DNA from: Phoenix dactylifera | Taxonomy: Eukaryota; Streptophyta; Magnoliopsida; Arecales; Arecaceae | DNA: 64,000 nt | NCBI RefSeq assembly: GCF_009389715.1 | Contig: NC_052397.1 | Coordinates: forward strand, 9,642,895 to 9,706,894 | Reading direction: 5' to 3' | Shown: positions 8,365-46,345 of the stretch, one piece after another | Position numbering within the stretch: position 1 is the first letter of the stretch | Layout: every line of letters begins with the position of its first letter | The notes under the pieces: generated by a model | Database searches by the model: none | What the model was told of the DNA's origin: nothing | The model's input: the letters and a program-made list of their open reading frames with translations, nothing else | Translations under genes and position numbers: made by a program

Positions 8365-8369
8365 ATCAT

Positions 8370-10376
8370 TGATCGGTTCTTTCAATTTTGAAAATAAACC
8401 ACGCAATAGCACGTATCTTGTAGGATAGTGATTACGGGTGTCGGTCCACAGGGATTGGAGACAAGTTATTTTTCTTTTAAAAATAAATCAAAAAGAAGGA
8501 TTTGATAACTTGATTTAACTTAATTAATCTATGAGTACGAATTGAAATTTTATCAAGGTAAATAGATCTAGGGTTTGGAATCCACCACATAGCATTGCAT
8601 CAAGGATTGTGTTCTTAATTTTTATCTTTTGGAGAGGCATGCAATTTTGGCTACAAGCCTTTTAAAATAAAAGCATAAAGAGTGTTAGGAAGATCCATCT
8701 TCGGTGTAGCATGAAGTGTCTACCTAAGTATGCTAATCTAGGATGCAGCACACTTCATCTTCCTAGGCATGGATCATCTTAGACTACTTTAGCAAACATG
8801 ATTAGTAACTAGCATGCTCAAAATTCAAATATCATGAAGAAATATTTCATTGGAAATAAGAATTTAAACAGACTCCAAAATAATAAAAAAAAAAGTAAGA
8901 ACTACAATTGCCCTGTACATTGCTAGGGCTTCATCCAGCCCTAGACTAGATGTTTAGCCGCGCATGGTTTCCGGACGACCTCCCATCTTCAAATGAAATT
9001 GAGCACCTCTCATTCTTCCCAAAATATCACAAACTCTTCTCTTTCCCCCCCTTTTTCTCTCTTTTTTTTATTTCTTTTTCTCTCTTTTCTCTCGGCTGGT
9101 GGCTTCTTTTCTTCACCGAAACAGGGGAGACCCCTGTTTCTTTCTTCTCAACCGAGCTCTCCCCCCTTCCTCCCTCTTCTTCATCTTGCTCTTATAGATC
9201 GCCGAAGGCCGGTGATGGATCCCCAGCGAGGAGGAGGGCGTGATGCTGGGAATGATCTCGGCGGGGGCTTGATTTCTGTTGCACGAGAGATCGCTGGAGA
9301 AGGGCGTGATCGTTGGACGCGGCTGGAACGGACTGATGGCGGAGGAGCTGGATCGTTGATTGCAGCCGGCTGGGATCGCGGAGACTGGGATGGGATCCGG
9401 ATGCGCCACGGGTGGAGGAGGAGGCGGAGACGCTGGGATTTCGACGCGGCTTGGGTCGCTGATCTTGGAGGAGAAGACGCCGCACGCGGTTGATGGCGGA
9501 GGACCCGGGGACGACGACGACGTTGGGGCGTTCGGCTGGGACGAGCTCCTTTGATCGCGCGGGGGAGGATTGCATCGCGGGAGAGGAGGAAGAGGCGCCG
9601 CGGGATCCACGGGAAGACGCAGTGGTTGTGAGCGAGGCGGGATCACGGGAAGGTTTGGCAGCGGGAGAAGAAGATAAACAGTGGAATCTATATATATATT
9701 TTATTTATTTATTTATTTATTTATTTATGTTTTTATTTATTTATATTTTTTTATATATATTTTTTGTGCACTGTTCATATGAACAGTGTTTCCAGTAATT
9801 CTTCCCGAAATTATTTTTATTTATTTTATTATTTTATTATTATTATTTATTATTATTATTTTTTTATTTTTTTTATTTTAAAATTATAAATTTTATATGA
9901 AGGCACGCAAGGCATTGGTTGGGAATTGACTTTGGGTTTGAGGTGGGTCATGATTGTTGATTTGCTTGAATTTGTTCTCGAGCCCAATGACATTTAATTT
10001 TACCATACCGCTTCAGATTGAACTCAACCAGATCAGACCGTGACTTAATAAAAAAATCAAATATTTTTCCATATAATTATAACTTTCAATCTAACCAGGA
10101 CCAAAGCCCATTGAATTATACCCTTAGCTTGATTGCAACTCCATCGGGTTAATAATTCGGGTCAACACAATCTCCTCCTTATATGTTTTTATGAAAGATC
10201 TCAACCAGAAGAGAGACAATTCAGAGTCTGTTTTAAGAAAAGTATTATTTACCTCATAATTTAAATTTATTTCATTGTTTATTCAATTTCATGGTAAAAC
10301 AAGTAGTTATCCGTTTAAGAACATTGATAAGTGCTGGAAAAAGAATATTAAATTATAGATTAATCAGCACTTATCA
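8370..10376 (-). repeat. 3' LTR of the Athila-like element
   Basis: A TG...CA bounded LTR containing a GC-rich block (about 9190-9670), a TTTA/TA run, and a 20-bp perfect palindrome at 9769-9788. ORFs of 97-177 codons in the GC-rich block occur identically in the other LTR and are not genes. Confidence 0.93.
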
Positions 10377-15093: not shown

Positions 15094-15098
15094 AAAAT

Positions 15099-17107
15099 TG
15101 ATCGGTTCTTTCAATTTTGAAAATAAACCACGCAATAGCACGTATCTTGTAGGATAGTGATTACGGGTGTCGGTCCACAGGGATTGGAGACAAGTTATTT
15201 TTCTTTTAAAAATAAATCAAAAAGAAGGATTTGATAACTTGATTTAACTTAATTAATCTATGAGTACGAATTGAAATTTTATCAAGGTAAATAGATCTAG
15301 GGTTTGGAATCCACCACATAGCATTGCATCAAGGATTGTGTTCTTAGTTTTTATCTTTTGGAGAGGCATGCAATTTTGGCTACAAGTCTTTTAAAATAAA
15401 AGCATAAAGAGTGTTAGGAAGATCCATCTTCGGTGTAGCATGAAGTGTCTACCTAAGTATGCTAATCTAGGATGCAGCACACTTCATCTTCCTAGGCATG
15501 GATCATCTTAGACTACTTTAGCAAACATGATTAGTAACTAGCATGCTCAAAATTCAAATATCATGAAGAAATATTTCATTGGAAATAAGAATTTAAACAG
15601 ACTCCAAAATAATAAAAAAAAAAGAAGTAAGAACTACAATTGCCCTGATACATTGCTAGGGCTTCATCCAGCCCTAGACTAGATGTTTAGCCGCGCATGG
15701 TTTCCGGACGACCTCCCATCTTCAAATGAAATTGAGCACCTCTCATTCTTCCCAAAATATCACAAACTCTTCTCTTTCCCCCCCTTTTTCTCTCTTTTTT
15801 TTATTTCTTTTTCTCTCTTTTCTCTCGGCTGGTGGCTTCTTTTCTTCACCGAAACAGGGGAGACCCCTGTTTCTTTCTTCTCAACCGAGCTCTCCCCCCT
15901 TCCTCCCTCTTCTTCATCTTGCTCTTATAGATCGCCGAAGGCCGGTGATGGATCCCCAGCGAGGAGGAGGGCGTGATGCTGGGAATGATCTCGGCGGGGG
16001 CTTGATTTCTGTTGCACGAGAGATCGCTGGAGAAGGGCGTGATCGTTGGACGCGGCTGGAACGGACTGATGGCGGAGGAGCTGGATCGTTGATTGCAGCC
16101 GGCTGGGATCGCGGAGACTGGGATGGGATCCGGATGCGCCACGGGCGGAGGAGGAGGCGGAGACGCTGGGATTTCGACGCGGCTTGGGTCGCTGATCTTG
16201 GAGGAGAAGACGCCGCACGCGGTTGATGGCGGAGGACCCGGGGACGACGACGACGTTGGGGCGTTCGGCTGGGACGAGCTCCTTTGATCGCGCGGGGGAG
16301 GATTGCATCGCGGGAGAGGAGGAAGAGGCGCCGCGGGATCCACGGGAAGACGCAGTGGTTGTGAGCGAGGCGGGATCACGGGAAGGTTTGGCAGCGGGAG
16401 AAGAAGATAAACAGTGGAATCTATATATATATATTTTATTTATTTATTTATTTATTTATGTTTTTATTTATTTATATTTTTATATATATATTTTTTGTGC
16501 ACTGTTCATATGAACAGTGTTTCCAGTAATTCTTCCCGAAATTATTTTTATTTATTTTATTATTTTATTATTATTATTTATTATTATTATTTTTTTATTT
16601 TTTTTATTTTAAAATTATAAATTTTATATGAAGGCACGCAAGGCATTGGTTGGGAATTGACTTTGGGTTTGAGGTGGGTCATGATTGTTGATTTGCTTGA
16701 ATTTGTTCTCGAGCCCAATGACATTTAATTTTACCATACCGCTTCAGATTGAACTCAACCAGATCAGACTGTGACTTAATAAAAAAATCAAATATTTTTC
16801 CATATAATTATAACTTTCAATCTAACCAGGACCAAAGCCCATTGAATTATACCCTTAGCTTGATTGCAACTCCATCGGGTTAATAATTCGGGTCAACACA
16901 ATCTCCTCCTTATATGTTTTTATGAAAGATCTCAACCAGAAGAGAGACAATTCAGAGTCTGTTTTAAGAAAAGTATTATTTACCTCATAATTTAAATTTA
17001 TTTCATTGTTTATTCAATTTCATGGTAAAACAAGTAGTTATCCGTTTAAGAACATTGATAAGTGCTGGAAAAAGAATATTAAATTATAGATTAATCAGCA
17101 CTTATCA
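15099..17107 (-). repeat. 5' LTR of the Athila-like element
   Basis: Same structure as the left copy, about 99.8% identical apart from short indels. The 20-bp palindrome is at 16500-16519. In the element's orientation the primer site follows this LTR after a 5-base spacer. Confidence 0.93.
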
Positions 17108-24330: not shown

Positions 24331-24573
24331 TTAATTGGGTTCCAATCCGAGCCGGGCCCAAGTAGCTCGGCCCGCTGACAGCAGTAGCAGTGTGGAGTGA
24401 TTTGATTAAAACCCCATTTGATTTTGATGAGCTCAAAGCATTTGAGTATATCTTGTGATTACTAATGAATTCAATTGAGTGTTTCAGTGAAAATCCTGTC
24501 CAAGTGTCTCTAGACTTGGTTCATAGTATTTTGGATAAGTTAAGAAGTCTGCATGAACCAAAGTCTGAGACTC

Positions 24574-25462
24574 GAGTCGACTCCCGAGTATCACGAGTCG
24601 ACTCCAAGCGTATCAAGTTCACTGGCACGAGCTCGAGTCGACTCCAGACTAGTACGAGTCGACTCCGACTGAGAACAGAAAGAAGAACAGAAAGCCTCAT
24701 CTCAGAACCTGTCAACGAGTCGACTCCTGAAGTGCGCGAGTCGACTCCAATGTTCAACGAGTCGACTCCAAGGTAGTAAGAGTCGACTCCAAGAGGTACA
24801 CAAAGAAAAGTCAGAGAGCAGTTTTTTCGGGTCTGAGATTCGAGTCGACTCCAGTGGAACGCGAGTCGACTCCGATGGTTGGCAGGTCGACTCCAAAGAA
24901 AGCATGAGTCGACTCTCAGCGGAACACAAGGAAAAAGTCAGAGAGCATTTTTGGGACTCTGAGATTCGAGTCGACTCCCGCATTGCACGAGTCGACTCCG
25001 AGACTCCGCGACCATCGACAGACAGAAAACCATGTTACTGCCTCTGAGATTCGAGTCGACTCCCAGACAGCTCGAGTCGACTCCAAGACAAGCTTCACGT
25101 CAAAAGGCAGAAGACCAACTTTCGGAAACTGAGAGCCGAGTCGACTCCAAGGAAGTTCGAGTCGACTCCAAGACTGGATGAGCCAAAAGACAGAGGATCG
25201 GGAGTTCGGGCTCTGAGATTCGAGTCGACTCCAAGGACAGTCGAGTCGACTCGAGTGGACAAAATTCAAAATTGGATCCACGGACTTCTGTGGATGAGCC
25301 GACTCCAGAATTGCCAGGTCAGCTCCAGAAGTTGGCGAGTCGACTCCGGGTCAAGACGAGTCGACTCCCAGTCGTGACGGCAACTTTAATTCAAATTTGG
25401 AACAGTTGCCGAGTCGACTCCGGAAAAGCTTGAGTCGACTCCCGCTATAGCCGAGTCGACTC
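24574..25462. promoter_or_regulatory. Phased array of GAGTCGACTC palindromes in U3 (5' LTR)
   Basis: I find 24 perfect copies of the 10-bp palindrome GAGTCGACTC, starting at 24574, 24595, 24635, 24656, 24717, 24738, 24759, 24780, 24842, 24863, 24906, 24968, 24989, 25053, 25074, 25138, 25159, 25222, 25243, 25337, 25358, 25411, 25432 and 25453, plus one-mismatch copies near 24884, 25296 and 25474. The commonest spacing is exactly 21 bp, and gaps between clusters are mostly 61-64 bp. Most copies extend to CGAGTCGACTCC. Spacers are unrelated, so this is not a simple tandem repeat. The array ends about 110 bp before the TATA-like box, an enhancer-like position. Function is inferred only. Confidence 0.8.
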
Positions 25463-25573
25463 CTGATCGCGCGAGTAGACTCCAACCCACCAACGGTCAT
25501 ATTGTCAGGCTGCGCAGAGTGTGCAGAACGGACAGAAAAAGCAGTGTAACGGCTAGTTTCCGTGGGGGTTGGC

Positions 25574-25580
25574 TTAAATA
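25574..25580 (+). promoter_or_regulatory. TATA-like box of the copia LTR
   Basis: GGCTTAAATAGCC is the best TATA-like sequence downstream of the array and would place the RNA start near 25605. The same sequence is in the 3' LTR. Confidence 0.45.
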
Positions 25581-26366
25581 GCCACAGAAGACTGTAGCAA
25601 GGCAGAGAACAACCATTCCACTCCAAGCATTCAAGCTTTCAAGCTCTGCAACGTGCTCTTCAACGAAAAAGGGGAAGATCATCATTTACTGCAACCAACT
25701 ACATCTTCCCAGCAATTAAAGCCTCCTCCTCCTGCATTCAAGTCGACTACTCATTCGAGAGGAGATCGGAGTTCAAGAAGCCATTTCTCTACTTCAGCTT
25801 AAAAGCGTTTGAGGGCTTCTAAACTCCTCTTTTGATTATATTGTTTTACATCTGCTTTTGAGAAGCTTATTTTCCTTTCTTTCTATAACTTATATTTACT
25901 TGGTTCAATCGGGGGATTGAATCAAGGGGACTAAGGTTGGTTGGTGAGCCAAGTTAAAAACCAACGTGTGTAAGGGTTTGATTGTGAGCTCGAAAAAACA
26001 ATCGGGGTTGGTTCTAGTCGGTGAGCCTGGAAAAACCGACCGAGTTCGTTGTGAGCTCGTAAAACAACAAGTTTGGTTGTGAGCTTGCAAAACAACCGGC
26101 TGTAATCCAAGGGGGTTATAGTGAAATTTTCAAGTGAGACTTGGGGAGTGGACGTAGGAGCAAGGGTTAGCTCCGAACCACTATAAAACCTTGTGTTTGT
26201 GATTGATTGGCTCTTTTCTTCTTACTCTCACATCACTCACAGCACTTAGGATTAATTAAATAACTTGCAATAGTTTTTAATTAATCATCCATAACGTCTT
26301 AAATATCTAAATTAATTTTAAAACCCAATTCACCCCCCCTCTTGGGTTGTCTATCTGGGCAACAAG

Positions 26367-26379
26367 TGGTATCAGAGCC
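26367..26379 (+). promoter_or_regulatory. Primer binding site, initiator tRNA-Met type
   Basis: TGGTATCAGAGCC, two bases after the LTR, is complementary to the 3' end of plant initiator tRNA-Met, the usual copia primer. Confidence 0.92.
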
Positions 26380-26413
26380 AAAAACTCTTCCACTCAAGAG
26401 TTAAAAGATCAAA

Positions 26414-28198
26414 ATGACAACCCCATTTGGATCTTCTCACATTGAGGGTCAGTCCACCCAAAGACCCCCTTTCTTCAATGGATCTGACTACTCATACTGG
26501 AAGGCTAGGATGAGAATATTCATCCAAGCCCAAGACTATGAGATGTGGTCCATTGTAGTAAATGGGCCATACATCCCATCCATATACGTAGATGGTGTTA
26601 AGGTACCTAAACTAGAAATGGACTGGGATGAACATGACATGAGGAAGGCACAATTAAACTCTAAAGCTATGAATGTGTTTTATTGTGCCTTAGACCGTAA
26701 TGAATTCAATAGGGTCTCTACTTGCAATTCTGCAAAAGAGATTTGGGACAGACTTGAAGTGACCCATGAGGGCACGAATCAAGTGAAAGAGTCCAAAATA
26801 AATATTTTGGTTCATAAATATGAACTATTTAAAATGGACTCTAACGAAACAATTACATGCATGTTCACTAGGTTTACTGATATTGTCAATGGCCTAAAAA
26901 GCCTTGGCAAGAACTATACTAACAGTGAACTTGTCAGGAAAATCCTTCGGTGTCTACCAAGGTCGTGGGAAGCTAAAGTGACGGCAATCCAAGAAGCTAA
27001 AGACTTGAACAAGCTTCCACTTGAAGAGCTCCTTGGATCCCTTATGACGCATGAGCTTACCATGAAACAACACAACGAGGAAGAGTCCTCCCATAAGAAA
27101 AAGGTAATAGCTTTAAAATCTACTTCTTCTAACAAGGACTTGTCTTGCAGCAGCAGCAGTGAAGAAGAAGAAGATGAGGAAGATGGTGGTGAGGCTCTTC
27201 TTGTGCGCAAGTTCAAGAAATTCATCAACCACAAGAAGTCCTATCATCAAAGGAGAGGCCCCTCAAATTCCTACCGCAAGGACAAAGGTAAGGAAAGGGA
27301 AAGTGAGGGGATCGGGTGCTATGAGTGCAAAAAGCCGGGACACATCCGAGCTGAGTGTCCCTTACTAAAGAAGAGCAGCAAGTACAAGAAGAAGAAGAAA
27401 GCCCTTGTCACCACCCTATCGGACTCCGACGCATCATCTTCATCATCGGATGAAGAACAAGAAGAGAAGGCCAATTTTTGTTTCATGGCCAACGAAAATG
27501 AGGTAACTTCCGATACGCACTATGATTTTTCATTTGATGAACTTTATGATGCGTTTAACGAACTAATGATTGAATATAAGGATGTTAATGTTAAAAACAG
27601 GGAACTAAAAGTAACTAACCAAACTTATATCCGTAAGTATGATTCTTTAATTAAGGATAAAGATGCTATTACCAAAGAAAATCTAAAACTTAAGACAAGC
27701 AACCAACTCTTAATTAAGAAAACTAATACCTTAACTAAAGATAATGAAAAACTAACTAAGGAACTTTCAGAACTCAAAAACCATAAACAAGTCTTAAACA
27801 AGGATCTAACAAAAGAACTAAATGATCTAAAAGCCGAAAATCAAACATTAACTAAAGAACTTAACAAATACAAATCCTTAGTTGAAAAATTCACATATAG
27901 TTCTGAAAAGTTAAACATGATACTTAACAGTCAACGAGCCGTATTCAATAAAGCGGGTTTAGGGTATAAACCGAAAAATAAACAAAAACTTCTTAGTAAC
28001 TTCTTTGTCAAAGCTGGGGAAAATAAAACTAAGAAAATGACCTGTTTTTGTTGTGGAAATATAGGACATAAGGCAAATGCATGTGACTATAGGAAAAGGA
28101 AAACTAAAAGAAAAATTAAACGGGTATGGGTTCCAAAAGGAACCAACTTGACTAACCATGAAGGACCCAAGAAAACTTGGGTACCTAAGATGACATGA
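26414..28198 (+). CDS. gag: Copia Gag (594 aa)
   Basis: The nucleocapsid polyprotein that packages element RNA. Residues about 15-230 are the UBN2-type gag domain (PPFFNGSDYSYWKARM, KEIWDRLEVTHEGT, LRCLPRSWEAKVTAIQEAKD). Zinc knuckle 1, CYECKKPGHIRAEC, is at residues 302-315. Residues 370-510 are lysine and leucine rich with repeated LTKEL/LKxxN segments and are likely coiled coil. Zinc knuckle 2, CFCCGNIGHKANAC, is at 544-557, followed by the lineage-typical RVWVPKGT and KTWVPK. The ORF is intact and ends with TGA; pol follows in the +1 frame after 13 bases. Confidence 0.93.
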   Translation: MTTPFGSSHIEGQSTQRPPFFNGSDYSYWKARMRIFIQAQDYEMWSIVVNGPYIPSIYVDGVKVPKLEMDWDEHDMRKAQLNSKAMNVFYCALDRNEFNRVSTCNSAKEIWDRLEVTHEGTNQVKESKINILVHKYELFKMDSNETITCMFTRFTDIVNGLKSLGKNYTNSELVRKILRCLPRSWEAKVTAIQEAKDLNKLPLEELLGSLMTHELTMKQHNEEESSHKKKVIALKSTSSNKDLSCSSSSEEEEDEEDGGEALLVRKFKKFINHKKSYHQRRGPSNSYRKDKGKERESEGIGCYECKKPGHIRAECPLLKKSSKYKKKKKALVTTLSDSDASSSSSDEEQEEKANFCFMANENEVTSDTHYDFSFDELYDAFNELMIEYKDVNVKNRELKVTNQTYIRKYDSLIKDKDAITKENLKLKTSNQLLIKKTNTLTKDNEKLTKELSELKNHKQVLNKDLTKELNDLKAENQTLTKELNKYKSLVEKFTYSSEKLNMILNSQRAVFNKAGLGYKPKNKQKLLSNFFVKAGENKTKKMTCFCCGNIGHKANACDYRKRKTKRKIKRVWVPKGTNLTNHEGPKKTWVPKMT

Positions 28199-28211
28199 TT
28201 TGCTTGTGTAG

Positions 28212-31200
28212 GAGTGTCTTGCAGCCAAGGTCAACAAGAACTGCTGGTATTTGGATAGTGGCTGCTCAAGGCACATGACGGGTGATAAAGACCAATTTTT
28301 CACCCTTGAAGCTAAGAAGGGAGGTGCTGTGACGTTTGGAGACAACAACCAAGGTCACATCATTGGTATTGGTAAAGTTCAAATCACCCCTTCTACTTTT
28401 ATAGATAATGTTAGATATGTTGATGGTCTTAAACATAACTTGTTAAGCATTAGTCAATTATGTGATAAAGGATATGATGTTATGTTTAAACCATCACTAT
28501 GTATTATAACAAATCCTAATGATAATAGTTTAGTTTTTAAAGGGATTAGACGTGGAAATGTATATGTTGTAGACCTAGAAGATCTTGCAAAACATAACCA
28601 ATGTCTAGTTGTAAATGAAACTAAAGATAATGATGCTAGTTGGTTATGGCACCGTAAGTTAGGTCATGCAAGCATGGACACAATAACTAAATTAGTTAAA
28701 AGAGACTCCGTGATAGGTTTGCCAAAATTAAAATTTGAAAAGAACAAAATATGTGAGGCATGTCAATTTGGCAAACAATCTAGGAACTCTTTTAAATCCA
28801 TAAAATGTGTCTCTACCTCTAGGCCTCTAGAATTATTACACATGGACCTATTTGGTCCAACTAGAACAACAAGCCTAGGTGGAAATAAATATGGCCTAGT
28901 TATTGTAGATGATTACTCTAGGTACACATGGGTCATGTTCCTAGCGCATAAGGACCAAGCATTTTCTATGTTTAAGAAGTTCCATAAGGAAGTAACAAAT
29001 GCTAGAGAGTCTTCAGTCATAGCCATTAGAAGTGACCATGGTACCGAATTCGAAAATCAATTATTTGATGAATTTTGTAGTAAAAAGGGGATAACCCATA
29101 ATTTTTCTGCACCTAGGACACCACAACAAAATGGAGTTGTGGAAAGGAAAAATAGAACTCTAGAGGAAATGGCTAGAACGATGTTATGTGAAAGTAACCT
29201 CCCTAAGTACTTTTGGGGAGAAGCCATTAATACTTCCTGCCATATATTAAATAGAGTTTTATTAAGACCCATTATAAAGAAAACACCATATGAACTGTGG
29301 AAAAACAGAAAACCAAAAGTTAATTACTTTCATGTTTTTGGATGTAGGTGTTTTGTCCATAATAATGGGAAAGATAATCTAGGAAAATTTGATCCTAAAT
29401 CTGATGAAGGAATATTCTTAGGTTATTCTACAACTAGTAAAGCCTATAGAGTCTTTAATAAAAGAACCCTAGTTATAGAAGAATCTATACATGTTGTTTT
29501 TGATGACTCTAATGACATCTCATCTAGTAAGAAGGTTAATTGTGATGATGATATTGAAATACTTGAAGAAAAGATAGATGAGATGGGATTACAAGATGAT
29601 AATCAAAAGTTGATTGAAGAAGCATCATCAAGCCAAGAGCCTATTGTGGATCATGGGTTAACAAAAGCTTGGAGGTATGCTCACGGGCATCCTAAGGAAC
29701 TCATTCTAGATGATCCATCTCAACCGGTTAGGACTAGAGCATCCCTTAGAAATTTGAATAACCATCTAGCTTTTGTTTCACACTTTGAGCCCAAACATAT
29801 AGAAGAAGCCGAAAATGATGTAAATTGGATAAATGCAATGCAAGAAGAACTAAACCAATTTACTAGAAACAAAGTGTGGGATCTAGTAGAGAGGCCTTCT
29901 GAATATCCAATTATAGGTACAAAATGGATATATAAAAATAAGCTAGATGAAAATGGAATTGTTATAAGGAATAAGGCTAGACTAGTGGCAAAGGGTTATA
30001 ATCAAGAAGAAGGCATAGATTTTGATGAAACCTTTGCTCCCGTAGCTAGACTTGAGGCTATTAGACTATTATTAGCATATGCATGCTCTAAGGATTTCAA
30101 ACTATTTCAAATGGATGTAAAAAGTGCATTTTTAAATGGGTATATTAATGAGGAAGTGTATGTAGAACAACCTCCTGGTTTTGAAAATCATCAATACCCT
30201 AATCATGTGTATAAACTGAACAAAGCACTTTATGGATTAAAACAAGCACCTAGAGCATGGTATGAGAGACTTAGTAAATTCCTATTAGAACATGAATTCT
30301 CTAGGGAAAATGTAGACACAACATTATTTCTGAAAAAGCAAAACAAAGATATGTTATTAGTACAGATTTATGTTGATGATATCATTTTCGGTGCTACTAA
30401 CAATCGCCTCTGCGAAGAGTTTGCTGATTTGATGCAGAGTGAGTTTGAGATGAGCATGATGGGAGAGCTGAACTACTTCCTAGGGCTACAAATCAAACAA
30501 TCTGAAGGAGGAATCTTCATCAATCAAGCAAAATATATTAAGGAGATGCTCAAGAAGTTTGATATGGAGGGAAACAAGTCAATCAGCACCCCCATGAGCT
30601 CATCATGCAAATTAGATCAAGATGAATCAGGTAAATCTGTAGATCAAAAACTTTATAGAGGTATGATAGGATCTTTACTGTATCTTACTGCAAGTAGACC
30701 TGATATTATGTTTAGTGTGTGCATGTGTGCTAGATATCAGGCTAATCCTAAAGAATCACACCTAGCTGCAGTTAAGAGAATTTTTAAATACTTAATAGGA
30801 ACTAAGAACATAGGGCTATGGTACTCTAAAGAATCTAGCCTAAACTTAATAGGATACACAGATTCAGACTTCGCTGGATGTAAGCTTGATAGAAAAAGTA
30901 CCAGCGGGTCTTGTCAATTTCTAGGAGAAAACCTTATCTCATGGTTTAGCAAGAAACAAAACTCGGTTGCATTATCCACTGCTGAAGCTGAATATGTGGC
31001 AGCCGGAAGTTGTTGTGCTCAAATCTTGTGGATTAAACAACAATTAGAAGATTATGGCATTAAACAAGATAAAATTCCCATTAATTGTGATAATACAAGT
31101 GCCATAAATCTAACTAAAAATCCAATTCAACATTCAAGAACTAAACACATTGAGATAAGACATCACTTCATAAGAGATCATGTATTGAATGGTGATGTGA

Positions 31201-31313
31201 CACTCCAATTTGTTTGTACTGATAATCAATTAGCAGATATTTTTACAAAACCCCTAAGTGAAGAGAGGTTTAGTGTGCTTAGGAGGGGATTAGGAGTGAT
31301 TGATCCATCCTAG
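28212..31313 (+). CDS. pol: Copia Pol: protease, integrase, reverse transcriptase, RNase H
   Basis: An intact frame runs from just after a TAG at 28209-28211 to TAG at 31313; no ATG opens it, so expression must depend on a recoding event or on an unknown start. Domains in order: protease with [13 protein letters not shown]; integrase zinc site ([10 protein letters not shown] ... CEACQFGK); integrase catalytic residues in [17 protein letters not shown] and [10 protein letters not shown]; copia-type [12 protein letters not shown]; reverse transcriptase from [20 protein letters not shown] through [10 protein letters not shown] to the catalytic [10 protein letters not shown] near 30370; RNase H with [20 protein letters not shown] and [11 protein letters not shown]. 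No internal stop is present, so the enzymes could be active. Confidence 0.94.
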
Positions 31314-31928
31314 TGGTGGTTTTCACTAGAATAATAGATTTTGATGATTACAATGTGGTTAAAATAGAGTTTCTTTTCAATGATCATCAAATCAGATCAT
31401 AATTAGGTGTTTTTCCCTCATTTGGCACGATTATAGCATGAGTTTTAGGTGCGTGCCAAAGTTAGAGACGACTCGAGTAAGTTTCAGAGCCGGCTCCTAA
31501 GGGGGAGTCGACTCGCGCATTTGCGGGAGTCGACTCGCAAAGATGGCAGCTGAGGGGGAGTCGACTCGCACATTGTCGGGAGTCGACTCGAAGTCTACAG
31601 GCGCATAAGGAGAGTCGACTCGCGCATATTCTGGAGTCGACTCGAGGTCGAGTCGACTCGCGACTCAGGGGAGTCGACTCGCAGTCGGGATCCGACTTTT
31701 TAACCCTAGGTTTGTCGTTTCGCAAACACTTTTCTTTCAAGCCGCCACTGTTCAAAAAGCCCTAGAGCCGACTCCTAGGTCGTCCCCGATCGTCTCCAAC
31801 CTCTGTTCGGACGATTTTTCACCGGTTCTTAGGGTTTTCGTCCGTTCCTAGGTCGTCTCCTGTCCGTCCCGAGTCTCCTCCGTCGACCTTTCTCCGTCCT
31901 TTAGGTGTTTCTTCCCGTTTAGGTCAAG
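31314..31928 (+). other. Region between pol and the extra ORF
   Basis: AT-rich to about 31440, then the second palindrome array (31505-31680), then a GC-richer pyrimidine-rich leader with repeated CGTCC and CTAGGTCGTC pieces leading to the ATG at 31929. It may carry a separate promoter or splice acceptor for the extra ORF; I cannot tell which. Confidence 0.5.
31505..31680. promoter_or_regulatory. Second GAGTCGACTC array, upstream of the extra ORF
   Basis: Eight perfect copies start at 31505, 31527, 31558, 31580, 31612, 31634, 31650 and 31671, with spacings of 22, 31, 22, 32, 22, 16 and 21. Six are GGAGTCGACTCG, the reverse complement of the 12-mer that dominates the LTR array, so this array runs in the opposite orientation. 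It ends about 250 bp before the ORF. Confidence 0.8.
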
Positions 31929-33518
31929 ATGCCTCGTAAGACCGTGGTTAGGAAGAGGTCCCGTCCCGAGGCCGGTCCCGAGCGGCGCTCCAAGGCGCGG
32001 CACGATCCCGCGAGGGAACCACCTCCGGCTCGTTCCCCGCCTAGGGCGGTTCCCGCAAGGCCGTTGGCGGGAAAGGCCGTCACCACCGGGAGGTATGTCG
32101 ACTTTGACTATCTCTCCCGGAAAGGGTTCACCATAGGTGATAGGCTTAGAGCCCAGGGCCTAGAGTACTTCCTCACTTTGGACCTTCCCACTTACCCTGG
32201 CCTTGTTCAAGAGTTTTATAGTACCGTCCATCGGGGAGATGGAGGTATCGAGGGCACAGTAGTAGGTGTCCCTGTGCGTGTCACGGAGGATCTCATTGCC
32301 CACATCCTCCACCTTCCATTAGTAGGGGTGGCTCCCGCACACCCTGAGGATAGAGTTGAGGCCCTTACGGTCGTCTTAGGGCATCCACCTCAGTCCCCCC
32401 TAGACGAGGTATCTGCTAGCTCACTTCCTATTGAAGTGAGAATCCTTTTGAGTATTCTGTCCAGGTCCATCTTCCCTAAGACAGGAAGATTTGATTTTGT
32501 AAATGAGAGGGACCTAGCTATTATGTCTTACATTCTTCAGAACACCCCGGTCAACTTCCCCAAACTCATCTATAGGTATATGTGTGAGCCCCTAGATAGA
32601 CCTAGGCTCAACCTCCCATACGGCATGATTTTTACTCTTCTCTTTAGGGAGTACGAGATTCCCATTCCTGAGAGGGAACCCTCTCGTGCATTGCGATGGA
32701 CAGATCGCTTGTGTACGGGGACCATGCACAGGATGGGGTTTCGGAAGAGAGAGGGGGTATGGGTTAGGAAGTCTACCTTCACCGCTCAGACCACCAGACC
32801 TTCACCCAGTCCTGAGCCCGATTCAGACTACCCAGACCTTCCAGACCATCCAGACCTTCCATCCACTCCTCCTGCTCCTACCACCTCCGCCGGACCTTCC
32901 TCCTCGGCACCACCCTCTATGGCGGTCCGGATTGATCCTGAGCAGCTCCGGGAGCTGCGACAGGAGATAGTCAGAGAGGTGAGGGATGAGCTGCTTCGAG
33001 AGCTCCGAGGTGCGGTGCTTGCTCCCACTCCTGCACCCGTATCTTCTCAGTTGGTTCGTTCCTTGACAGCCGTGACTGACATGACGGCTCATGTACGGGA
33101 AGAGATCTACAATGTCCGGAGTTTGGTCCAGGCCCAGTTCCACAGCATGAGTGAGGTCACGAGCTCCACTCGACAGATGCGAGAGGAGATAGGTCGTGAC
33201 ATGCACACCACCACCGAGGGGGCCGAGCGCTTGTCAAATGTACTCATCGACAAGCTGGACGCACTTCAGACATCGGTGACTGGGCTTCAGGCGTCGGTGA
33301 CAGAGCTCTCCACTACACATAGCAGAGCCACCACGTCTATCATCACACAGCTTGGCCATGTCACAGATGCAGTCACCCTCCTCATGGAGCAGAGCCGATT
33401 GAGAGGAGGAGCACCATCCTCGAGAGGAGGAGCCACATCCTCGAGAGGAGGAGCCACATCCTCCAGAGGAGGAGATGCATCCTCGAGAGGGGGAGCTTCA
33501 TCCTCGAGGAGGACATAG
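31929..33518 (+). CDS. Extra ORF after pol (529 aa), plant transposon-associated protein-like
   Basis: I do not know its function. Residues 1-55 are basic and proline rich. Residues about 58-270 resemble the 'putative plant transposon protein' domain often seen in plant repeat ORFs, with RKGFTIGDRLRAQGLEYFLT, PTYPGLVQEFYSTVH, VPVRVTEDLIAHILHLPLVG and RFDFVNERDLAIMSYILQNT. A proline/serine-rich linker follows (290-335), then a likely coiled coil (QLRELRQEIVREVRDELLRE and on to about 490), then SSRGGA/SSRGGAT repeats. No signal peptide or membrane segment is visible, which argues against an envelope protein despite the env-like position. GC content is clearly higher than in pol, suggesting a separate origin. 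Confidence 0.7.
   Translation: MPRKTVVRKRSRPEAGPERRSKARHDPAREPPPARSPPRAVPARPLAGKAVTTGRYVDFDYLSRKGFTIGDRLRAQGLEYFLTLDLPTYPGLVQEFYSTVHRGDGGIEGTVVGVPVRVTEDLIAHILHLPLVGVAPAHPEDRVEALTVVLGHPPQSPLDEVSASSLPIEVRILLSILSRSIFPKTGRFDFVNERDLAIMSYILQNTPVNFPKLIYRYMCEPLDRPRLNLPYGMIFTLLFREYEIPIPEREPSRALRWTDRLCTGTMHRMGFRKREGVWVRKSTFTAQTTRPSPSPEPDSDYPDLPDHPDLPSTPPAPTTSAGPSSSAPPSMAVRIDPEQLRELRQEIVREVRDELLRELRGAVLAPTPAPVSSQLVRSLTAVTDMTAHVREEIYNVRSLVQAQFHSMSEVTSSTRQMREEIGRDMHTTTEGAERLSNVLIDKLDALQTSVTGLQASVTELSTTHSRATTSIITQLGHVTDAVTLLMEQSRLRGGAPSSRGGATSSRGGATSSRGGDASSRGGASSSRRT
33405..33512 (+). repeat. 21-bp tandem repeats at the end of the extra ORF
   Basis: About five units of the type CCTCGAGAGGAGGAGCCACAT encode repeated SSRGGA-T segments at the C-terminus. 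Confidence 0.8.
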
Positions 33519-34291
33519 ATGTGTTTGAGTTTTGTTTTGTATTGTTTTACTTTACTTATTGTATGCTCAAATGTATTCACATTCATATCAATACAATGAG
33601 TAGACATCTTATCTTCACTTCTGTGCCATTTGATGATTGGTTGTGCCATTTGTGCCATTGATTGTGTGTGATTACCTCCTTTTTGGTATGATGACAAAAG
33701 GGGGAGAAATATGTATAAAATGTGTAAAAGGGGAGAAATATGAAAAAATATGTAAAAGAAATCAATGGAAATAAATAAAAAGATAAACTCTTAAAAACAC
33801 ACACAAATTTGTTCTAAGTGGATTCGGTACCTCGAGGCTCATTATCTCTCTTTCGGGGCTCCTAATGGAGTAATCTCCAGAATCTATTCAAGGGATATTC
33901 GGAGATTAGCTGAATCCTACTCAAGAACAAATTGACAGATTTTCCCTCTAAAAACAAAAAATTCAGTTCAAAAACTTCAAAGCATTAAAAGGAAATTCAG
34001 AGAATCAAAACATAGTTGAATGCATATGTTGAGGGGGAGAATCTAAATTTTAATCAAACTAAATCATTAATGACATATAAGCCACACAATTGATTGCATA
34101 ATATGAAGGCTTATATAATTCCAAATGAAAGGGGGAGCTTTAACTCCGAAATTTAATGTTTCACTCCTTTCAAACTTGGATAAATTAAATTATCAGACAT
34201 TTGAATTCATTTATGGATTTTATTTTATTATTTATTGAGCAAGTCATTTTACATATACTCAAAGTTTTGTCATTATCAAAAAGGGGGAGAT
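33519..34291 (+). other. Copia 3' region with repeated polypurine tracts
   Basis: AT-rich, no ORF. Purine tracts of the AAAGGGGGAGA type occur near 33699, 33727, 34031, 34127 and finally 34279-34291, directly before the 3' LTR; the last is the functional position. Multiple such tracts fit SIRE/Maximus elements. Confidence 0.75.
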
Positions 34292-36268
34292 TGTGGAGTG
34301 ATTGATTAAAACCCCATTTGATTTTGATGAGCTCAAAGCATTTGAGTATATCTTGTGATTACTAATGAATTCAATTGAGTGTTTCAGTGAAAATCCTGTC
34401 CAAGTGTCTCTAGACTTGGTTCATAGTATTTTGGATAAGTTAAGAAGTCTGCATGAACCAAAGTCTGAGACTCGAGTCGACTCCCGAGTATCACGAGTCG
34501 ACTCCAAGCGTATCAAGTTCACTGGCACGAGCTCGAGTCGACTCCAGACTAGTACGAGTCGACTCCGACTGAGAACAGAAAGAAGAACAGAAAGCCTCAT
34601 CTCAGAACCTGTCAACGAGTCGACTCCTGAAGTGCGCGAGTCGACTCCAATGTTCAACGAGTCGACTCCAAGGTAGTAAGAGTCGACTCCAAGAGGTACA
34701 CAAAGAAAAGTCAGAGAGCAGTTTTTTCGGGTCTGAGATTCGAGTCGACTCCAGTGGAACGCGAGTCGACTCCGATGGTTGGCAGGTCGACTCCAAAGAA
34801 AGCATGAGTCGACTCTCAGCGGAACACAAGGAAAAAGTCAGAGAGCATTTTTGGGACTCTGAGATTCGAGTCGACTCCCGCATTGCACGAGTCGACTCCG
34901 AGACTCCGCGACCATCGACAGACAGAAAACCATGTTACTGCCTCTGAGATTCGAGTCGACTCCCAGACAGCTCGAGTCGACTCCAAGACAAGCTTCACGT
35001 CAAAAGGCAGAAGACCAACTTTCGGAAACTGAGAGCCGAGTCGACTCCAAGGAAGTTCGAGTCGACTCCAAGACTGGATGAGCCAAAAGACAGAGGATCG
35101 GGAGTTCGGGCTCTGAGATTCGAGTCGACTCCAAGGACAGTCGAGTCGACTCGAGTGGACAAAATTCAAAATTGGATCCACGAACTTCTGTGGATGAGCC
35201 GACTCCAGAATTGCCAGGTCAGCTCCAGAAGTTGGCGAGTCGACTCCGGGTCAAGACGAGTCGACTCCCAGTCGTGACGGCAACTTTAATTCAAATTTGG
35301 AACAGTTGCCGAGTCGACTCCGGAAAAGCTTGAGTCGACTCCCGCTACAGCCGAGTCGACTCCTGATCGCGCGAGTAGACTCCAACCCACCAACGGTCAT
35401 ATTGTCAGGCTGCGCAGAGTGTGCAGAACGGACAGAAAAAGCAGTGTAACGGCTAGTTTCCGTGGGGGTTGGCTTAAATAGCCACAGAAGACTGTAGCAA
35501 GGCAGAGAACAACCATTCCACTCCAAGCATTCAAGCTTTCAAGCTCTGCAACGTGCTCTTCAACGAAAAAGGGGAAGATCAGCATTTACTGCAGCCAACT
35601 ATATCTTCCCAGCAATTAAAGCCTCCTCCTCCTGCATTCAAGTCGACTACTCATTCGAGAGGAGATCGGAGTTCAAGAAGCCATTTCTCTACTTCAGCTT
35701 AAAAGCGTTTGAGGGCTTCTAAACTCCTCTTTTGATTATATTGTTTTACATCTGCTTTTGAGAAGCTTATTTTCCTTTCTTTCTATAACTTGTATTTACT
35801 TGGTTCAATCGGAGGATTGAATCAAGGGGACTAAGGTTGGTTGGTGAGCCAAGTTAAAAACCAACGTGTGTAAGGGTTTGATTGTGAGCCCGGAAAAACA
35901 ATCGGGGTTGGTTCTAGTCGGTGAGCCTGGGAAAACCGACCGAGTTCGTTGTGAGCTCGTAAAACAACAAGTTTGGTTGTGAGCTTGCAAAACAACCGGC
36001 TGTAATCCAAGGGGGTTATAGTGAAATTCCCAAGTGAGACTTGGGGAGTGGACGTAGGAGCAAGGGTTAGCTCCGAACCACTATAAAACCTTGTGTTTGT
36101 GATTGATTGGCTCTTTTCTTCTTACTCTCACATCACTCACAGCACTTAGGATTAATTAAATAACTTGCAATAGTTTTTAATTAATCATCCATAACGTCTT
36201 AAATATCTAAATTAATTTTAAAACCCAATTCACCCCCCCCCCCTCTTGGGTTGTCTATCTGGGCAACA
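34292..36268 (+). repeat. 3' LTR of the copia element, with its own palindrome array
   Basis: Same structure as the 5' LTR; the 24-copy GAGTCGACTC array is at 34474-35362. The first 890 bp match the 5' LTR except for one single-base indel. All 12 substitutions lie in the distal part, positions equivalent to 25283-26129. Confidence 0.95.
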
Positions 36269-36273
36269 AGCAG

Positions 36274-41300: not shown

Positions 41301-41343
41301 ATCAAGAAATCAGCAATTGTATTCCCTTTAATAACTTAAAATA

Positions 41344-43235
41344 TAAAGAATGCATTTTACTCAAATGGTGAGTTCTTTCATGTCTGATATTGTGCTCATA
41401 TTCTTAACTTAATTGTACAAGAGAAATTAAAGGAGATACATGAGCTTATCTTCAAGGTTTGTGAAAGTATTAAATATATGAAAGGTTCACAAGTTTGGAA
41501 ATAAAAAATTTTGGATTGTCTTAGACAAATTTTTTTGGAAAGTAAAAAAAACTTAAGGCAAGATGTTCCTACAAGATGAAATTCAATTTTTTTGATGCTA
41601 GAGAGTGCCTTTCTTCATTTGAAGTTAAGTGACTTTAATTACAAGCATCGTCCATCTGAAGAGGAGTGGGGCAAAGTTAAGAAAATTAGCAAGTGGTTGA
41701 GTATGTTCTATAATGCTACTTTAGTATTCTCCAAAGTTAAATATACTATATCAAATTTTTGTTTTCCTCAAGTTTTATTGATTGAGATTACTTTAAGATG
41801 AGATGTAGAGTATAGATGCTTTCGGGCAAAGAATGACACGACGGATGTATGGAAAATTTGAAAAGTATTGGTTGGATTGTAGCTTAATCTTCCCCATGGT
41901 AGTCAATTTGGATCCTTGGTATAAATTTCAGTTTGTGGAGCATTGTTATAAGAAGTCGAATGGATATGGTTGTACTGAGAGCATGTGCATCTATGGTTGT
42001 ATGTTTTCTCTCGTTAATCACTATATACTTACTTCTCTTAAAGCTCCAACTACTAGCACGTCAACTCATAGAGAGATGGAGAGGGATACTTCTTGTGAGA
42101 CTTCTGAGCGATGCATAAAAGTGGATATTTTTAAGGTAATATAACACATTTTTCACTAGGATGGATGGTGATTTGAGGCATTGTAAAGTTTTAAAATGCA
42201 TAAACATATCACAAATATCATTTCCAAGCAAGTTATCATAACCATAATTCATACCCATTTAAATATTCATGAAGGATGCAATTTAATCAGATTCAAAAAT
42301 CACATGCAATCATATGCTTGATCCTACTTTTAAACAAATACATCATAACAAATATATAATTTTTATTTCATACTTACAATTAAATAGTGATTTGAAATTA
42401 ATAAAATTTGTGCCAGGATTACTTACCTTGATTCGCTCACAAATCTCTAGACCTAGGTGATAATTTTACTGTACCTATCAATATCGTAGAGAACAGATTA
42501 TTAGCCACTCACTCATCATTTTTCTTTTTATTTATATATTTATTTTTTTCCTTTTCTTCTTTTCTTTTTCTTTTCTTTTCCTTCCTTTTCTTTTTCTTTT
42601 CTTTTTCTGTTCCTTCTCTTCTTCCTTCTTTTTCCCGAAGCTTCCCCTTCCTTCTCCATTCTTCTCCTCTCTTCTCCCGCGAGCAAGGAAGGGCAAACGG
42701 AGCTCTTGGGAGGAGGTGATCCTCGTCGGGGTGATCGGAAGAGGATCAGCCCGAGGCCGGCCAGCCCTCTCCTTCTTCCCGCGGAGGAGACAAGCGTACG
42801 GGATAAGCCTGCCGAGGCCGGCGGCGTCGCGGGATGCCCGCGGCCGAGCCTGCGGCCCCTCCCCGCGACGGCCGTGGAGCTCACGGCTGGGCTGCAGCTT
42901 CGCGGCGCCCGCGGCTGGGGCCAGTGGCGCTGGCATTGCTGGCATTGCTCCCGCGGTGAGTCTTCCCTTCTTCCCCTTTTTTCTTCTTCTTTATTTCTTT
43001 CTCTTAATTGATCTATCCTCCCGAGTGGATCGAGAGGAGGAAAAGCAGTGGAGAAAAGAAAGGAGAGCCAAGGTCCTTACCTTGCTCCGGGAATGAGCTG
43101 CGATGACCCTCTCCGGCGGCATCGACGTGGGTTCAGAAAACCCTATCACGGGAGGGTTCTGGAACAGTGAGCGAGGAACGGCTGGGCCACCGTACATCCT
43201 TCTCTCCCCTCCCTGCAGAAATTGGTAGTGCTCCA
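41344..43235 (+). repeat. Inverted duplication, arm 1
   Basis: 1.9 kb, nearly identical to the reverse complement of 43827-45701. Reading plus, it carries the 3' part of the hAT transposase pseudogene (LNLIVQEKLKEIHELIFKVC, SDFNYKHRPSEEEWGKVKKI and the YKFQFVEHCYKKS block near 41930), then AT-rich sequence, then a GC-rich block (42630-43235). It lacks the N-terminal half of the gene and joins integrase debris at its left edge, so it is the secondary copy. Confidence 0.9.
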
Positions 43236-43826
43236 GATACAGAATAATAATATGAACTGCCAATGTTCGATCTTTACCATTAGACCTAGCTATGAAGAAA
43301 AGCAATAAATGGAAACAAAAAAGGCAATAAAAAGAAAATAGAAAAAATCGTTTCGAAAAACACTAGGTTTCGTCCAAAGCAGTAGACTTATATTTCACAT
43401 TCAAAGAAATTCCCCCATTTGTTCGCTTCAATAAACTGTTATGGCAGTAGACAAGTAGTATAACTAGCAGTATTCAATGAAATTACTATGGTCATTCAGA
43501 AGGTGCTGCTTGTTCAATTAAAAATAATTCTGTCATAAAGAAAGATGATCAAGGATGGTAGGAGGATGATCAGAGCTGTTCCACACCAAATGTTCAACTT
43601 TCCAGTTAACTTCCCGCGGTTTTAGAATTGCTTTGTTTTCTATATTGTTAACTGTACATGGGTTGTCTCTGTTTATAAAACCGTGTGCAAGGAATTTTAC
43701 ACTGAATATTTCAAGGAATATATACGGAATATATATCGCAAGGAATATTACTCGTTGAACCTAGACATATACTGTGACTATTGGGCTGCCAGATGGGCCG
43801 GCCTGGACCAAAGTCGGAAGCCCATC
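43236..43826. other. Spacer of the inverted duplication, with 131-bp repeat copy B
   Basis: 591 bp. Positions 43236-43366 repeat 23976-24106 at 127 of 131 bases. The remaining 460 bp are AT-rich with no ORF; a TTTATAAAA at about 43674 is a possible TATA element. The last 35 bp include a short hairpin (CAGATGGGC / GCCCATCTG). Confidence 0.7.
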
Positions 43827-45701
43827 TGGAGCCACTACCAATTTCGGGGGGGGGGGGGGATGTACGATGGCCCAGCCGTTCCTCGCTCACTGTTCCAGAA
43901 CCCACCAGAACCCTCCCGTGATAGGATTTTCTGAACCCACGTCGGTGTCGCCGGAGAGGGTCATCGCAGCTCATTCCCGGAGCAAGGTAAGAACCTCGGC
44001 TCTCGTTTCCTTTCTCCACTGCTTTTCCTCCTCCCGATCCACTCGGGAGGATAGATCAATTAAGAGAAAGAAATAAAGAAGAAGAAAAAGGGGAAGAAGG
44101 GAAGATTCACCGCGTGCGGCCGCGAGCGATACCGGCGCCACTGGCCTCGGCCGTGAGCGCCGCGAAGCTGCAGCCCAGCGTGAGCTCCGCGGCCGTCGCG
44201 GGGAGGGGCCGCAGGCTCGGCCGCGAGCATCCCGCGACGCCGCCGGCCTCGGCCGGCTTATCCCGTACGCCTGTCTCCTCCATGGGAAGAAGGAGAGGGC
44301 TGGCCGGCCGCCGGCGCTGCCGGCCTCAGGCTGATCCCCTTCCGATCACCCCGACGAGGATCACCTCCTCCCAAGAGCTCCGTTTGCCCTTGCTCGCGGG
44401 AGAAGAGAGGAGAAGAATGGAGAAGGAAGGGGAAGCTTCGGGAAAAAGAAGGAAGAAGAGAAGAAAAAGAAAAGAAAAAGAAAAGGAAAAGAAGAAAAAG
44501 AAAAAAATATATAAATAAAAAAGAAAAATGATGAGTGAGTGGCTAATAATCTGTTCTCTACGATATTGATAGGTACAGTAAAATTATCACCTAGGTCTAG
44601 AGATTTGTGAGCGAATCAAGGTAAGTAATCCTGGCACAAATCTTATTAATTTCAAATCACTATTTAATTGTAAGTATGAAATAAAAATTATATATTTGTT
44701 ATGATGTATTTGTTTAAAAGTAGGATCAAGCATATGATTGCATGTGATTTTTGAATTTGATTAAATTGCATCCTTCATGAATATTTAAATGGGTATGAAT
44801 TATGGTTATGATAACTTGCTTGGAAATGATATTTGTGGTATATTTATGCATTTTAAAACTTTACAATGCCTCAAATCACCATCCATCCTAGTGAAAAATG
44901 TTTTATATTACCTTAAAAATATCCACTTTTATGCATGGCTCAGAAGTCTCACAAGAAGTATTCCTCTCCATCTCTCTGAGTTGACGTGCTAGTAGTTGGA
45001 GCTTTAAGAGAAGTAAGTATATAGTGATTAAAGAGAGAAAACATACAACCATGGATGCACATGCTCTCAGTACAACCATATCCATTCGACTTCTTATAAC
45101 AATACTCCACAAACTGAAATTTATACCGAGGATCCAAATTGACTACCATGGGGAAGATTAAGCTACAATCCAACCAATACTTTTCAAATTTTCCATACAT
45201 CCGTCATGTCATTCTTTGCACGAAAGCATCTATACTCTACATCTCATCTTAAAGTAATCTCAATCAATAAAACTTGAGGGAAACAAAATTTGATGTAGTA
45301 TATTTAACTTTGGAGAATACTAAAGTAGCATTATAGAACATACTCAACCACTTGCTAATTTTCTTAACTTTGCCCCACTCCTCTTCAGATGGACGATGCT
45401 TGTAATTAAAGTCACTTAACTTCAAATAAAGAAAGGCACTCTCTAACATCAAAAAAGTTGAATTTCATCTTGTAGGAACATCTTGCCTTAAGTTTTTTTT
45501 TACTTTCCAAAAAAAATTGTCTAACACAATCCAAAATTTTTTATTTCCAAACTTGTGAACCTTTCATATATTTAATACTTTCACAAACCTTGTAGATAAG
45601 CTCATGTATCTCCTTTAATTTCTCTTGTACAATTAAGTTAAGAATATGAGCACAACATCAGACATGAAAGAACTCACCATTTGAGTAAAATGCATTCTTT
45701 A
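43827..45701 (-). repeat. Inverted duplication, arm 2
   Basis: Reverse-complement partner of arm 1. It is continuous on its right with the rest of the hAT transposase pseudogene, so it is the original copy. A C/G run of 13 near 43848 replaces a shorter tract in arm 1. Confidence 0.9.
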
Positions 45702-46345
45702 AATTAAGTTGGATCTTTAGCATGTCAATAGAACCATCATTTACCGATGCATTATCCAAGGTCATGGAATACAATTTCTTTTTAATCCTCCAGTCAATCA
45801 ACAAACCATAAATTATTTCACATAAAGATATGCCATTATATGGAGGCGGCATGAAACGAAAGTTGAGAAATTTCTTTTGTAACTCTCATTCTTCATCAAT
45901 AAAATGGGCGGTTAAACACAAATACCCATCGGTAGTAATAGAGGTCCACAAATTCAAAATCAAACTTATCCTATAAGGAATTGAATGTAGCCACAATACT
46001 AAATTTTCCTTTTCTTTTTTATACTATTTCAACAAATTAACCTTTACAGTATTCTTTGATACTAACTTGGCATCCTCACAAACATAAACAAATAAAGATC
46101 TAATATCTTCATACTCAACAAATTGAAATGGTAGATCATGCTTAATAATTGCAAATATTAACAATTCATGGAATTTGTCGGGATCAAACTTACTAGAATG
46201 CATTGATCTAGACCCTTGAGATTGTGATAAGATCATCCGTCCTATGTCATGGTTCTTTCTACAACTCTCTAAATGTCGTTTCAAATATTTGGTCCCAACC
46301 TTATCACTAAATGGATATTCGCAGCATACTTTATGCACTTGCATT
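44900..46345 (-). pseudogene. hAT (Ac/RICESLEEPER-type) transposase pseudogene
   Basis: The family product is a BED-zinc-finger DNA transposase. From 46345 downward: a decayed BED finger ending YLKRHLESCRKNH; SSKFDPDKFHELLIFAIIKH and LPFQFVEYEDIRSLF; after a stop, YKKEKENL with WTSITTDGYLCLTAHFIDEE; MPPPYNGISLCEIIYGLLID; SMTLDNASVNDGSIDMLKIQ (catalytic-core aspartate region); GEFFHV then a stop and CCAHILNLIVQ; SDFNYKHRPSEEEWGKVKKI; and NLDPRYKFQFVEYCYKKSNG. The C-terminal dimerisation domain is not seen. At least four in-frame stops or frameshifts make it dead. Confidence 0.8.

Follow-up and report, generated by a model that had tools for sequence, protein, structure and literature searches.

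The window, i.e. the whole stretch of 64,000 nucleotides of Phoenix dactylifera DNA that was analysed, contains at 24391-36268 a TSD-flanked, intact-looking Copia retrotransposon, with LTRs of 1974 bp (5') and 1977 bp (3'); 12 substitutions and 7 gap columns are counted in the alignment of the LTR pair. The element is a young Copia retrotransposon with published Sirevirus hallmarks; the RVT_2 match of its pol shows Copia only. Its features are listed below, where "aORF" indicates the additional open reading frame downstream of pol.

24391-26364, plus strand: 5' LTR (TG...CA), direct repeat with the 3' LTR; TSD AGCAG at 24386-24390
24574-25482, plus strand: U3 array, 24 exact GAGTCGACTC and one-mismatch copies at 25296 and 25473
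25574-25580, plus strand: TATA-like TTAAATA
26333-26339, plus strand: polyC run close to the LTR end, of the type of the Sirevirus "integrase signal", as judged from sequence
26367-26379, plus strand: primer binding site TGGTATCAGAGCC
26414-28198, plus strand: gag ORF, 594 aa, with Retrotran_gag_2 and a CCHC zinc knuckle
28251-31313, plus strand: pol ORF, 1020 aa, with integrase core and Copia RVT_2
31465-31774, minus strand: linker array, 8 exact GAGTCGACTC and one-mismatch copies at 31465 and 31765, the asymmetric 12-mer being on the minus strand
31929-33518, plus strand: aORF, 529 aa, with Transposase_32 (PF20167), basic N terminus and C-terminal helical region
33696-34290, plus strand: polypurine-tract copies with GGGGGAG at 33696, 34031, 34127 and 34278
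34292-36268, plus strand: 3' LTR, followed by TSD AGCAG at 36269-36273
34474-35382, plus strand: copy of the U3 array in the 3' LTR, 24 exact

For most LTR computations, 24391-26362 was taken as the 5' LTR, 2 bases short of the final end at 26364. Elsewhere in the window, a 2-kb direct repeat, 99.4% identical (8368-10376 and 15097-17107), may represent the two LTRs of a further young element, and an inverted repeat of 1.9 kb, with 93% identity, is found at 41340-43238 and 43824-45705.

A preliminary description, made from the sequence of the window, had reported 24 exact copies of GAGTCGACTC in U3 at 24574-25462, repeated at 34474-35362: 24 are indeed present in each. Its account of the copies as belonging to the two LTRs holds for these 48 but is not complete, the window total being 56 exact copies. 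The remaining 8 form a further cluster, missed earlier, at 31505-31680 between pol and aORF; with two one-mismatch copies, this linker cluster spans 31465-31774, within the 615-bp gap that separates the two ORFs. Matches with at most one mismatch are 62 in the window, whereas 100 shuffles contain 0.89 on average and never more than 4, which rules out a chance origin of the sites. The spacing had been given as mostly exactly 21 bp with larger gaps of 61-64 bp, and the array as ending about 110 bp before a TATA-like box; both statements are confirmed, as in the 5' array 13 of the 23 neighbour gaps measure 21 bp and 6 measure 61-64 bp (the other 4 are of 40, 43, 53 and 94 bp), and 111 bp lie between the last exact copy and TTAAATA at 25574. 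In the linker, the spacings are, in order, 40, 22, 31, 22, 32, 22, 16, 21 and 94 bp.

Site clusters between pol and aORF are found in five families, A to E, where A is the window element. The true site is longer than the 10-mer: it is a slightly asymmetric 12-mer, CGAGTCGACTCC, which lies on the plus strand in U3, where 20 of 24 sites have the two flanking C, and on the minus strand in the linker cluster, where 6 of 8 have the two flanking G. The orientation flips likewise between U3 and linker in family B (18/22 and 5/7) and, weakly, in family C (13/15 and 1/3). The flip is not general: in family D linker and LTR sites share one orientation, and in family F (loci L010, L011 and L020), where arrays are present in the LTR and again inside the gag region, the internal array keeps C..C in 6 of 8 sites. 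This gag-region array (L010:4377-4607 and L020:6969-7250) takes the place of an aORF-upstream one. In a further element, N, described below, the flanks are mostly C..G (5/8).

Bousios et al. 2010 (BMC Genomics 11:89; PMC2829016) had already reported palindromic "repeated motifs" (RMs) for Sireviruses, placed both in the LTR and ahead of the env-like gene. It had been stated that no plant LTR with this design was described: this does not hold, since the two-place layout was published in 2010, and the design itself is therefore not new. According to PMC2829016, each element carries 8 to 32 RM copies, which in the LTR occupy the upper part, ahead of the TATA box; linker RMs are confined to env-containing elements, with 77 of the 79 linker copies upstream of the env-like gene; RMs are CpG-rich, and their flanks diverge. 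The window element is alike in its palindromic arrays, in both their places, in CpG richness and in diverging flanks. It features the RM array in the upper LTR, with 24 exact copies ahead of the TATA box, and the extra copies (8 exact, 31505-31680) ahead of the aORF, which starts at 31929 and corresponds by position to the published "ENV-gene". CpG islands are present at both clusters, with observed/expected ratios of 1.18 and 1.32 (GC 0.52 and 0.56) against 0.32 in gag-pol; CpG richness is here the observed/expected ratio, while CpGplot is the programme of PMC2829016. Four polypurine-tract copies precede the 3' LTR, and gag is large (594 aa) with a zinc knuckle (zf-CCHC at 301-316); for a gag coiled coil, only weak matches below the cut-off are found, at about 410-505. 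A polyC signal, expected some 20 bp inside the end of the LTR, is present (C7 at 26333-26339; end 26364) and is likened by type to the "integrase signal" described in the available text of PMC2829016. The published RMs mostly contain a CGG-CCG core, present in 12 of the 13 tabled motifs, while GAGTCGACTC does not; because the exception, Tnd-1, is also without it, the core is common, not defining.

A second motif, TTGRGTCGACCCAA, marks family D, found in L009 (34 sites) and then in L029-L032. Its exact 21-bp pairs number 4,304 on the forward and 4,162 on the reverse strand genome-wide, symmetrical ones counting on both. The D motif is found in D's own LTR and linker, the A motif in A's; the centre GTCGAC, which also occurs in the Vitis RM CGGTCGACCG of the PMC2829016 table, and the 21-bp lattice are common to both families. 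The LTR pairs of A and D are little diverged. In the D copy at L009 (C1, 60-70 kb) the LTR pair shows more gap openings (47) than mismatches (29), and some of the frame breaks of this copy may stem from indels of the assembly. A motif intermediate between A and D is seen at L013:8281-8630, as a cluster of GAGTCGACCC (5 copies) with one GAGGCGACTC.

The preliminary description had also proposed that site and phase are conserved, rather than a whole repeat unit. This is borne out by the LTR comparisons of A and D, in which cores outlast spacers. In a sample of eight LTRs, corresponding to about five elements, three of which contribute two each, palindromes did not decay faster than spacers: aligned with the window 5' LTR, the core is 92-100% and the spacer 50-94% identical, with core exceeding spacer in all eight (Fisher p from 2.3e-6 to 1e-36), although Mafft may anchor on palindromes and inflate core identity. 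Within family D, core identity is 0.99-1.00 and spacer identity 0.76-0.88 in 4 of 4 LTR comparisons. The number of intact 10-bp blocks shows the same contrast. Between A and B, 21 of 24 core blocks are intact, compared with 58 of 442 in spacers and 232 of 971 in the other LTR parts; for A and C the figures are 14/24, 10/442 and 51/517, and for A and C2 11/24, 5/442 and 145/944. The synonymous divergence that separates A from B amounts to 1.2 for the aORF and to 0.62 for part of pol. Six linker comparisons of core and spacer were made: p is 4e-6 for A-B, 0.016 for A-L019 and 0.09 for A-C, and the three family D pairs are not significant.

The spacers had been called unrelated, which is not wholly so: Tandem Repeats Finder detects higher-order units of 85 bp (73% matches) and 126 bp (78%) within the array. 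These are the kind of repeats to be expected if the array were a neutral minisatellite, its unit spread through slippage and gene conversion and having no function. The palindromes, however, are kept while the spacers in the same arrays diverge, and one motif appears in two contexts, in opposite orientation, within one element, and again in the unrelated element N; a neutral origin is thus considered very improbable.

The phase of the sites was evaluated on 12 of 18 arrays built, six near-duplicates being dropped, using neighbour spacings of 13-129 bp between sites with at most one mismatch. The LTR spacings lie mostly at multiples of about 10.5 bp. This is supported by a resultant at 10.5 bp of 0.81 (n=140 neighbour spacings, 12 arrays), 0.66 when each spacing counts once per array (n=69) and 0.58 after also excluding 19-23 bp (n=49; best period 10.85, and 0.29 at 21 bp), where the phase statistics (Rayleigh values) are descriptive, not true probabilities, because copies share descent. 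Odd multiples of 10.5 bp (31-32, 51-53 and 94) are present, so that duplication of 21 bp alone is not a sufficient explanation; they agree more closely with helical phase than with a unit of 21 nt, the plant siRNA size to which the preliminary description had also pointed. The proposed location of the sites on one DNA face is supported for the LTR arrays, mostly in helical phase, but not for the linker, which contains a 16-bp step, nor for the off-phase gaps of 70-71 bp in the family D LTRs. Four families (A, B, C and D) show the 16-bp step (1.5 turns) in their linker arrays, and D shows it in its LTRs too; the step is part of a 22-16-22 module (with 21 or 20 as one of the outer spacings in some) which is itself conserved and in which neighbouring sites are on opposite faces. 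Positions of the step include 31634-31650 in the window, L031:1117-1133 and, on the reverse strand, L032 1137-1153.

In the 773-Mb genome, where the window is placed at C6:9642895-9706894, the exact 21-bp pair of GAGTCGACTC occurs 111,310 times (reversed-pattern control: 0). Pairs 24-28 bp apart are 105 (control: 2) and those 29-33 bp apart, in phase, 4,599 (control: 0); at 35-39 bp there are 6,564 (control: 0), which outnumber the in-phase 29-33 bp pairs, and the statement that every pair is in phase was dropped for this reason. Among 100 matches listed of these 6,564, inspection by eye finds a third site, with at most one mismatch, inside each pair, and mostly the 16-bp linker step beside 21 or 22 bp. 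Exact copies are present in 10 of 12 10-kb stretches taken from C1 near known matches, and in none of 8 from arbitrary places of C2 and C3. A search for the 21-bp pair in viral contigs gave 0 matches; in the literature, the matches listed for GAGTCGACTC include no plant retrotransposon by title.

Palindromes so arranged could also act in the transcript: neighbouring copies would pair into hairpins, which either supply siRNA pathways or escape them, an idea discussed for the palindromes of maize Sireviruses. When compared with 20 shuffles, the RNA of the array folds much better (z -6.2), and in maize Sireviruses the palindrome-rich parts of the LTR are sRNA hotspots, according to the available text of PMC5311732. 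The same text relays, from Bousios et al. 2016 (Genome Research), that the palindrome-rich cis region of these LTRs is highly variable and rapidly evolving; the likeness to the window LTRs lies in this palindrome-rich cis region, as described by the citing paper. Any repeated palindrome yields hairpins, however. Moreover, pairing would tolerate compensated changes, yet the identical 10-mer is retained, and would not depend on a helical spacing in which odd multiples of 10.5 bp occur: a role at the RNA level is regarded as improbable.

The kept sequence, its palindromy, the helical spacing in U3, the positions of both clusters and the family-specific motif favor a dimeric DNA-binding protein over RNA pairing or neutral repeats. 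With a probability of about 0.7, the array is the Sirevirus RM system, in which identical palindromic sites ahead of two promoters form the platform of a two-fold symmetric, sequence-specific DNA-binding protein. These promoters would be the LTR promoter, for gag-pol, and a probable internal promoter for the aORF; the protein would control both, through activation or through protection from silencing. With U3 sites mostly at whole helical turns, bound dimers would be aligned along one face, and their binding may be cooperative; specificity would come from site density, not from any single site, as described for VANC.

As for the protein that would occupy this platform, the aORF product of the element itself and a host factor appear about equally likely, each at slightly less than even odds. 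In the first case, the aORF ("env-like") protein would bind the RM arrays of its own family and thereby activate or unsilence the two promoters, in the manner of VANC on VANDAL elements. Such a role is suggested by the position of the linker sites, directly ahead of the aORF, and by their restriction to elements with an env-like gene in PMC2829016. Features of the protein are also consistent with it. A first look at the genome gives 11,620 candidate aORF homologues; the 82 scored are 94-100% identical, and 77 of them contain no internal stop. Purifying selection acts on the aORF, with dN/dS of 0.11-0.24 in 4 comparisons. Residues 1-50 are basic (pI 12), and by hydropathy the protein shows no strongly hydrophobic stretch and no transmembrane helix, a trait of retroviral envelopes, the highest 19-residue value being 1.19. 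A long C-terminal helix is predicted in the AlphaFold model, which is of low confidence (mean pLDDT 41.7). On the other side, that model offers no evidence of a DNA-binding fold, and none of the VANC domains (DUF1985/DUF287) is present among 25 of the 26 matched Pfam families listed for 13 aORF homologues at E<=10. The best E of the aORF profile against PDB is 0.13, and no match is found in NCBIfam. At the 3' end of the aORF, a 21-bp tandem repeat of 5.3 copies (33401-33513) encodes SSRGG-type repeats, whose number varies among homologues.

Comparison between families bears on the same point. Two D copies carry an open aORF of 435 aa, 40.7% identical to that of A over 285 residues, and a pol tail 74-75% identical to A; the two D aORFs, compared with each other, give a dN/dS of 0.11. 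Divergent aORFs are thus found, within one genome, in families whose motifs differ both in LTR and linker, as would be expected if each protein read its own sites. A third D copy (L029-L030), with no aORF match even when the D protein is used as query, keeps both arrays, which argues against the aORF product as the binder. So does family E: its aORF, recovered in pieces, shows 21-37% identity with A and 30-43% with D, plus a 25-residue piece at 52% (E 0.18), and by sequence this aORF seems, if anything, nearer to D than to A, yet its five linker sites are A-like (2 exact, 3 with one mismatch). The simple rule that the motif follows the aORF is weakened by this family. A 3' LTR of E was sought beside the remnant and not found; a 2046-bp tandem repeat is located there (C1:258767-263500; L019 end, L033).

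The A-like sites of E, paired with a distant aORF, would instead agree with a host transcription factor recognizing a palindromic, GTCGAC-centred site, towards which the Sirevirus families and element N evolved independently; the GTCGAC shared by A, D and the Vitis RM points in the same direction. N is a Copia element with a single open gag-pol frame (1,204 aa seen, the 5' end lying past the locus edge). Its LTRs, at L016:5325-6266 and L017:283-1224 (C1, about 225.3-231.2 kb), are 942 bp long and 99.15% identical, with TSD ATCAA if the LTR end is moved one base earlier. The U3 of N contains 8 exact and 2 one-mismatch GAGTCGACTC, on a lattice mostly of 20-21 bp that ends 87 bp before TATATA. 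No aORF match is found in N, and its LTR, with motifs masked, gives no blastn match at E<1e-3 to five Sirevirus-type LTRs: the same sites and lattice are present nonetheless, in favor of the host factor. N is classified as non-Sirevirus on its layout rather than on a tree: both linker and aORF are absent, and pol identity is 33%. It could equally use a Sirevirus protein in trans, however. Moreover, A and D differ in motif inside one genome, with little diverged LTR pairs, which counts against the host factor, and a common binding site of one known factor could not be found for RMs, according to the available text of PMC2829016.

It is conceivable, though on balance rather unlikely, that the "env-like" gene, rather than specifying an envelope, codes for a family-specific activator or anti-silencer that binds DNA and reads the RM arrays of its own two promoters, that motif and protein changed together, as in A and D, and that unrelated Copia elements such as N grew the same helical-phase array independently and exploit the protein in trans.

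VANDALs are DNA transposons. For those of Arabidopsis, binding by VANC21 was shown by EMSA (Hosaka et al. 2017, PMC5735166). In the available text of that paper, they resemble the present elements in the dense short motif of their non-coding parts, in the extra protein that they encode and in the variation of the motif between related families. VANC, in contrast, contains DUF1985/DUF287, while the window aORF contains Transposase_32 and is known here from its sequence. The aORF of sunflower Athila, as described in the available text of PMC11728184, is alike in its 3' position and in Transposase_32, and a nuclear signal is predicted for it; Athila is of the Gypsy lineage, and no palindrome array is mentioned in that text. 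The "DOWN" motif of Arabidopsis PMD, as far as presented in the source text available, was weighed as a possible analogy to the palindrome arrays.

The palindrome array is a well-supported variant of a published Sirevirus feature; its putative link to the aORF and its presence in an unrelated element are possibly new. Beside the layout known since 2010, novelty may lie in the contrast between core and spacer, in the 10.5-bp lattice, in the D-type second motif with the same layout and in the U3 array of N, i.e. in the regularity and conservation of the arrays and in the occurrence of the same sites in an unrelated element. The available text of PMC2829016 makes no mention of a 10.5-bp lattice or of a motif pair like A and D in one genome; RMs are there said to be absent from classic Copia elements, while N carries an array. 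The role of the Sirevirus palindromes and of the env-like gene was left open in 2010, in the same text. A single genome offers 111,310 site pairs, two families, A and D, differing in both motif and aORF, and the aORF-less N with the same sites: this combination makes the choice between own protein and host factor directly testable. Should the binder prove to be the element's own protein, this would give an additional ORF, in an abundant group of Copia elements, a function comparable to that of VANC.
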